This document shows positions 13,601 to 14,521 of a DNA stretch of 49,167 bases, in pieces; within the stretch, counting starts at the first letter, position 1; every line of letters begins with the position of its first letter. The stretch lies in contig WELB01000029.1 of NCBI GenBank assembly GCA_009602725.1, positions 849,612 through 898,778 of the forward strand. The letters are read 5' to 3'. A model generated the notes under the pieces. The model saw nothing but the letters and a program-made list of their open reading frames with translations, did no database searches and was not told the origin of the DNA. The DNA is from Spirogloea muscicola (taxonomy: Eukaryota; Streptophyta; Zygnematophyceae; Spirogloeales; Spirogloeaceae). A program made the translations under genes and the position numbers.

Positions 13601-14521
13601 GACCCCGCGGCGGCGGCGGCCGCGCCGCAGAGCGCGGCGGAGCTCACCGCCTTCGTGAGTGCCGCCGCACTGCCCGCCACCTCTGGCCGGAGATAGTCGC
13701 CGGCAGCGCGCCGGCGACGGCTCTGGCCATCGCCGCCCGGCCACGGGACTTAGGTTCTAGGAATTAGGGCTCAGTGCTTAGTGCTTAGGGTTTAGGATTT
13801 AGGGTTCAGGAGCTGCCAGAGGCCTCACTTACGGCTGCTGCCGTAATGGCTTTCCATTGTGGCCCGCAGGTCCAGAACCTGCTGCAGCAGATGGTGAGCT
13901 CGCCAAGTCCCACCGTGCTGTCTCGGTGCCTCTGACCGAGACCGTTGCCACCTAGTTTGCCATTGGCATAAGCCGGGACCCACAAAGCTTGGCCGGCCCA
14001 ACAGAGGAGTGCCGACGGCCGCCGCTGCGGTGCAGCTCTCACACCGCCTGACTCGTGGCTGGATGCCTGCAGCAAGCGCGGTTCCAGACCATGTCCGACT
14101 CCATCATCACGAGAAATATCCTCCTCACTGCCTTTGGTCGGGCTGCCACCCATCATTCTCGCAGGCTCGGGTGCCACGCATACGCGCTCACCTGCCGACT
14201 TGATGCTGAACCACAGTGCTTCTGTGGAGCTTTCATCACAATCGCCGCTATGGGCTGCGATCCACGTTGGCAAGTTCTCACGTAGCTCCACGGCGAGCCT
14301 GCCTGTCTGTGCCCCCCCTAGCAAGTCGGGGTGCTCTTTTCTGGCAACTCCTTGACTCTGCCAGCCCGCGCGCACTTGACGAAATGGGCACGAGGATTGA
14401 CGAGCTGGAGCGGAGCATCGGGGACCTGGTCCGGGAAGCCGGGGCCGAAGGCGGCTCCCAGGTCCTAGCGCAGCCGCCGCCGCCGCCGGCCCTGAAACGG
14501 GAGTCCTCGCAGGAGGCGTGA
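13601..14521 (+). CDS. Heat shock factor-binding protein, HSBP (5' partial, 4 visible exons)
   Basis: Small coiled-coil protein that binds heat shock factor trimers and dampens the heat-shock response (family knowledge). Exons: (gap)13601-13654, 13870-13893, 14073-14115, 14376-14521. Translation in order: [29 protein letters not shown], then [19 protein letters not shown]. This is the HSBP signature essentially without gaps. A Pro/Ser-rich tail ending KRESSQEA follows, longer than the ~75-residue animal and plant proteins. The second exon is a 24-nt microexon encoding eight residues. The last intron, 14116-14375, is AT-AC with U12-type signals (separate entry); only that splice restores the conserved heptads. 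Visible coding is 267 nt, 89 codons including stop. No start codon is visible between 13601 and the poly-A tract, so the N-terminus lies in or across the gap. Confidence 0.9.
13743..13810 (+). repeat. Degenerate TTTAGGG telomere-type repeat in HSBP intron 1
   Basis: The best part, 13784-13810, reads as cttaggg, tttagga, tttaggg, ttcagg, that is variants of the plant/green-algal telomere unit TTTAGGG. The preceding ~40 nt carry weaker variants (ttaggt, attaggg, cttagtg). It lies wholly inside an intron. Confidence 0.75.
14116..14375 (+). other. U12-type AT-AC intron in HSBP
   Basis: The donor is ATATCCTC, seven of eight bases of the U12 AT-AC consensus ATATCCTT. The acceptor ends in AC at 14375. 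A branch-site match, TCCTTGAC at 14349-14356, fits TCCTTRAC and puts the branch adenosine (14355) 20 nt from the intron end. Splicing joins phase 1 A with TT to give Ile, restoring [17 protein letters not shown]. No GT-AG pair nearby gives a conserved protein. Confidence 0.88.

Follow-up and report, generated by a model that had tools for sequence, protein, structure and literature searches.

The window, the whole stretch of DNA that was analysed (49,167 nt), is part of contig C29 in the 153.1 Mb, 471-contig assembly of Spirogloea muscicola, and carries on its forward strand an HSBP1 gene with four visible exons (13601-13654, 13870-13893, 14073-14115 and 14376-14521). The visible part of exon 1 (13601-13654, DPAAAAAAPQSAAELTAF) has no visible start codon; the start codon is hidden within or beyond a gap at 12943-13599, where a run of N followed by approximately 120 A lies just 5' of the exon. 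This run is probably an assembly artefact. Introns 1 (13655-13869) and 2 (13894-14072), both of the GT-AG type and on the forward strand, measure 215, 205 and 215 nt and 179, 175 and 176 nt, respectively, in the three copies of the gene present in the genome, and the exon that they flank (exon 2, 13870-13893, encoding VQNLLQQM) is identical among these copies at 24/24 positions. Exon 3 (14073-14115), delimited from the sequence and the alignment of the homeologs, ends with the first base of an isoleucine codon, and is joined in frame to exon 4 (14376-14521), which runs to the stop codon. The joined product matches the HSBP1 family (PF06825, cut-off 28.6 bits) with a score of 94.2 bits, covering positions 2-51 of the 51 in the Pfam profile; it aligns to 3ci9 and has nothing notable to set it apart from heat shock factor binding protein 1.

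Pfam scans covered 20 proteins from the window, made up of the spliced HSBP product plus 19 of the many open frames, and gave no match for 14 of the 20. Methionyl-tRNA synthetase exons (PF09334) lie at 1163-2565 and a patatin-like phospholipase exon (PF01734) at 31834-32874, both on the forward strand. On the reverse strand, a 679-residue open frame (21064-23100) consists of charged repeats in which glutamate, arginine and lysine abound; it lies where the DNA has a strong GC skew and has no Pfam match. Also on the reverse strand, a proline-rich frame (26499-28208) has a weak match, below the cut-off, to the formin FH2 domain.

The 260 nt between exons 3 and 4 (14116-14375, forward strand) are very probably a U12-type (minor-class) AT-AC intron removed by the minor spliceosome, judging from a scan of splice pairs, the homeologous copies and shuffled sequences. 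A U12-type donor (ATATCCTC, 14116-14123), a U12-type branch site (TCCTTGAC, 14349-14356) and a terminal AC (14374-14375) are all present, as the original prediction of such an intron in an HSBP gene had described, and the branch site is at the distance then given from the 3' end, its last A (14355) being 20 nt before the final base of the intron. On the forward strand of the whole window, RTATCCTY and TCCTTRAC occur once each, both within this intron; on the reverse strand there are one RTATCCTY and two TCCTTRAC, unpaired. When the intron was dinucleotide-shuffled 20,000 times, the donor never appeared at its start, the branch motif appeared in its window nine times, and the two never appeared together. 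The donor sequence from +1 to +7 is ATATCCT in the three copies (7/7) and agrees with the minor-class consensus over these positions, which are the ones that matter most in such donors; C follows at both +8 and +9. The consensus RTATCCTT has T at +8, and consequently a filter that applies this motif strictly, as does the donor rule found in the accessible text of PMC2846911, would miss the HSBP donor.

All stop-free, in-frame GT-AG, GC-AG, AT-AC, AT-AG and GT-AC pairs with donors at 14080-14199 and acceptors up to 14459 (n = 145) were scored by comparison of their splice products with a human HSBP1 segment. The AT-AC pair ranked first with a score of 119, the runner-up being a GT-AC pair with 101, and the best GC-AG and GT-AG pairs reached 87 and 85, respectively. 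The AT-AC product was also the only one of the 145 to match the uninterrupted HSBP pattern, which upholds, among these in-frame pairs, the earlier claim that the HSBP heptads are restored by splicing at 14116/14375 and in no other way.

The three copies of the gene, on C29, C135 and C189, can be aligned throughout its length, and their number agrees with the genome triplication reported for S. muscicola in the available portion of PMC7994812. The C135 copy has a run of N at the place equivalent to 12943-13599 of the window. The third intron is 260, 246 and 256 nt long on C29, C135 and C189, respectively, and its length differences are not divisible by three, indicating that the interval is non-coding; retention of the intron was rejected on account of these differences and of its in-frame stop codons. 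Pairwise comparisons of the third intron show differences at 25/246, 39/249 and 29/239 aligned positions. Against this divergence, the donor is identical at 8/8 positions in the three copies, the terminal AC is the same in 3/3, and the branch site is TCCTTGAC on C29 and C135 and TCCTTAAC on C189, with its last A 20 nt from the 3' end in 3/3. The keeping of termini is by itself weak evidence, because at such divergence the end dinucleotides of 86 of the 145 candidate pairs are unchanged in both homeologs.

Public gene models place the third intron elsewhere. The model P0001 (EukProt SM000029S10594, s29:863457-864132), the best database match, ends where the gene in the window ends (C29:864132) and starts at window position 13846; a second model, P0009 (s135:284296-284953), lies at the site at which a genome search located the C135 copy. 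P0001 implies a GT-AG intron at 14171-14364 on the forward strand, by which 23 residues replace one isoleucine, lengthening the protein there by 22, and P0009 has 16 core residues swapped for 16 intron-derived residues. The HSBP1 domain scores 63.9 bits (in two stretches) in P0001 and 37.3 bits in P0009, compared with 94.2 bits in the AT-AC product, part of the gap being due to the differing 5' ends of the two models. Removal of 14171-14364, with the isoleucine giving way to 23 residues in the protein, is very improbable, even though this pair is the junction chosen by EukProt, is in frame, and scores highest of all GT-AG pairs: its acceptor CAG (14362-14364) is CGG on C135, and C189 has no AG there, for which reason the junction was rejected. 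Moreover, the insert would disrupt the coiled coil, and P0001 is at odds with P0009, in which core residues are exchanged. Of 330 HSBP homologues found, 120 were listed, and 118 of these have no insert and are uninterrupted across the junction (117 by pattern and one, P0054, by eye, being one residue off the pattern); the only exceptions are the two Spirogloea gene models. Both public models are wrong at the third intron. AT-AC introns go unseen in gene models in which every junction is forced to be GT-AG, and surveys based on annotation may undercount them here.

Excision of the AT-AC intron by the major (U2) spliceosome is likewise hard to credit. Major-class AT-AC introns exist, and minor introns account for a small fraction of all introns in most genomes, but ATATCCTC fits the minor-class consensus from +1 to +7, the TCCTTRAC branch site is kept in 3/3 copies, and U12-type donor and branch sequences recur in the CBP20 gene of Spirogloea; this possibility was rejected. 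Pseudogene status, with the splice signals as relics, was also rejected and is exceedingly improbable: the want of a visible start codon, which might suggest it, is due to the gap at 12943-13599, whereas all three copies have intact frames, intact splice signals, and codon changes that are mostly synonymous (8, 10 and 9 synonymous changes versus 2, 3 and 3 others).

As a U12-type intron, the interval would have its donor ATATCCTC recognised by U11 and its branch site TCCTTGAC by U12, after which U6atac would take over the donor and the minor spliceosome would excise the 260 nt, with the join AGA A/TT GAC (the slash marks the junction) restoring the continuous coiled coil of HSBP. From sequence, we infer both the splicing at 14116/14375 and each of these snRNA pairing steps.

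The CBP20 gene of Spirogloea, also present in three copies (L038, L039 and L040, on C68, C300 and C314, respectively), has in 3/3 copies an AT-AC U12-type intron directly downstream of an exon of 34 nt, at the position known from land plants, with donors ATATCCTC, ATATCTTC and ATATCCTC, branch site TCCTTGAC, and lengths of 173, 180 and 178 nt. Thus, the HSBP intron is no lone oddity in this genome. It differs from the CBP20 intron of land plants in its host gene and in the C at +8 of its donor, where land-plant CBP20 donors typically have T. In subtype, termini and branch class, the HSBP intron and the fourth intron of land-plant CBP20 are alike, according to the accessible part of PMC5932401, in which exon 4, 34 nt long in Arabidopsis and rice, precedes an AT-AC U12 intron in all ten of the land-plant CBP20 genes studied.

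Genome searches located at least three U12 loci (80.1-81.1 bits, Rfam RF00007), at least three U6atac loci (83.2-85.5 bits, RF00619) and at least four U11 loci (45.8-59.6 bits, RF00548), these copy numbers being lower bounds because only the best candidates were scored (46 of 5506 for U6atac). The matches are full-length and all exceed the Rfam gathering scores, and a scan against all 4227 Rfam families names the loci U11, U12 and U6atac. The same families gave no U12 match, no U6atac match and one U11 match (below the cut-off, with E up to 1) in 14 control genomes. The branch-pairing segment of U12 (GAGUAAGGA) is intact. A TATCCCA motif is located upstream of nine of the ten snRNA loci (L001-L009), at -76/-77 for U11 and U12 and at -68/-69 for U6atac, a spacing that fits the rule for plant Pol II and Pol III snRNA promoters as set out in the available text of PMC9845283. 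The tenth locus, a copy of U11 (L010, C439:1913-2051), has no TATCCCA and the lowest of the U11 scores, and may be a dead copy. For U4atac, there was no match among the 48 of 1771 first-look candidates that were scored with E up to 10 (Rfam), a threshold at the level of noise, at which 11 of the 14 control genomes had matches, none of them above the cut-off.

Coding pieces of U11-35K are found at two loci (L017 and L021), and two joined exon pieces of L017 match human 35K with an E value of 1.3e-18, versus 3.7e-6 for U1-70K. The aligned stretch of L017 has a TGA after FRAPL, and that of L021 has none. The genome gave no match to a 65K query except an RBM41-type RRM, which is encoded at two loci. 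The RRM of L028 matches 2cpx (which we take to be RBM41) at 1.3e-13, the RNA-binding protein 41 chain at 1e-12, and RNA-binding protein 40 (presumably the 65K protein) at 1e-7. In the accessible part of PMC11039992, RBM41 is described as a component of the minor spliceosome, and a protein taken to be CENATAC, from the CENATAC paper cited at that point, is linked to introns with AT-AN ends. CENATAC matches in Spirogloea score 99.2 and 97.9 bits, with 0/14 controls matching. The U11-48K zinc finger (zf-U11-48K) was not found in a genome search of the best candidates, in which 1/14 controls matched, and the genome search for PDCD7 (59K) gave only a match of 16.6 bits against a cut-off of 27, the candidate frame in L016 being of low complexity and rich in arginine and glutamate. 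The proposal that this lineage keeps components of the minor spliceosome is therefore sustained by genes for U11, U12 and U6atac and by coding pieces for 35K, an RBM41-type protein and CENATAC; far from lacking every minor snRNA and protein gene, the genome contains these three snRNAs and several of the proteins. The set of components originally put forward was recovered in part: U11, U12, U6atac and 35K were found, whereas the searches for U4atac, 65K (with an RBM41-type RRM instead) and 59K (PDCD7) came up negative among the best candidates scored.

S. muscicola is a streptophyte, a member of the Zygnematophyceae, and for this reason the contrast initially drawn with the loss of minor introns in Chlamydomonas-type green algae does not apply. 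Retention of minor splicing is expected in a streptophyte, and minor introns have already been reported in Chara braunii and Klebsormidium nitens, according to the accessible text of PMC10639083. The HSBP intron and the minor introns of these two species have been retained within the same wider lineage; the genomes on which that study drew came with annotations, whereas the HSBP intron is annotated as something else in Spirogloea (PMC10639083, available part). The terms Spirogloea, Zygnem and HSBP have no mention in the available main text of PMC10639083, nor has HSBP in those of PMC6717393 and PMC4892727. A literature search that covered few subscription journals returned no report of minor splicing in Spirogloea, and no literature joining heat shock factor binding protein to a U12-type intron; a paper bearing on Zygnematophyceae and the minor spliceosome deals, by its title and abstract, with U2AF65B. 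Spirogloea extends the record of minor-intron retention to a class with a close relationship to land plants, with an AT-AC intron in common with land-plant CBP20.

The AAAGGA element of U6atac pairs with donor positions +4 to +9. All three copies of U6atac found in Spirogloea (L004, C40:67983-68101; L005, C294:115190-115309; L006, C69:305419-305538) have GCC at bases 12-14, in contrast to the conserved AAG of Rfam RF00619, so that AAAGGA becomes AGCCGA (Rfam consensus, UGAAAGGAGAGAAGG; the three Spirogloea copies, UGAGCCGAGAGAAGG; the change may also be written as AAGGAUGG to AAGGACGG). With its donor-pairing element altered, the U6atac step would differ from that of the textbook. Each of the six Spirogloea donors examined, from the three copies of two introns, carries C at +8 and not the consensus T. 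In the +4 to +9 register, these donors form 4-5 of six pairs with the consensus U6atac and 3-4 of six with the local U6atac, the new G facing the C at +8; the local U6atac and a consensus donor form 4/6 pairs, including a G-U pair at +8. A tentative and rather doubtful explanation is that donor recognition by the minor spliceosome has been re-tuned in Spirogloea, with the change of U6atac from AAAGGA to AGCCGA being matched by a change of the donors at +8, the position facing the new G, where T would have given way to C. The C at +8 in two independent introns and six copies speaks for such re-tuning, under which U11 at first recognition and U6atac on taking over would differ in the bases that they prefer within one donor; U11 retains AAAGGG in its three promoter-bearing copies. 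However, the T of a consensus donor could likewise be accommodated by the new G through a G-U pair, and by computation the Spirogloea donors pair worse with the local U11 (-4.4 or -2.5 kcal/mol, the HSBP donor being at -4.4) than a consensus donor does (-6.0 kcal/mol). The energies of the U6atac-donor duplexes are not decisive. Drift, or a consensus U6atac copy that escaped detection, would also fit. If the change in U6atac holds, Spirogloea is a natural setting in which to test the extent of pairing between U6atac and the donor that the minor spliceosome needs.
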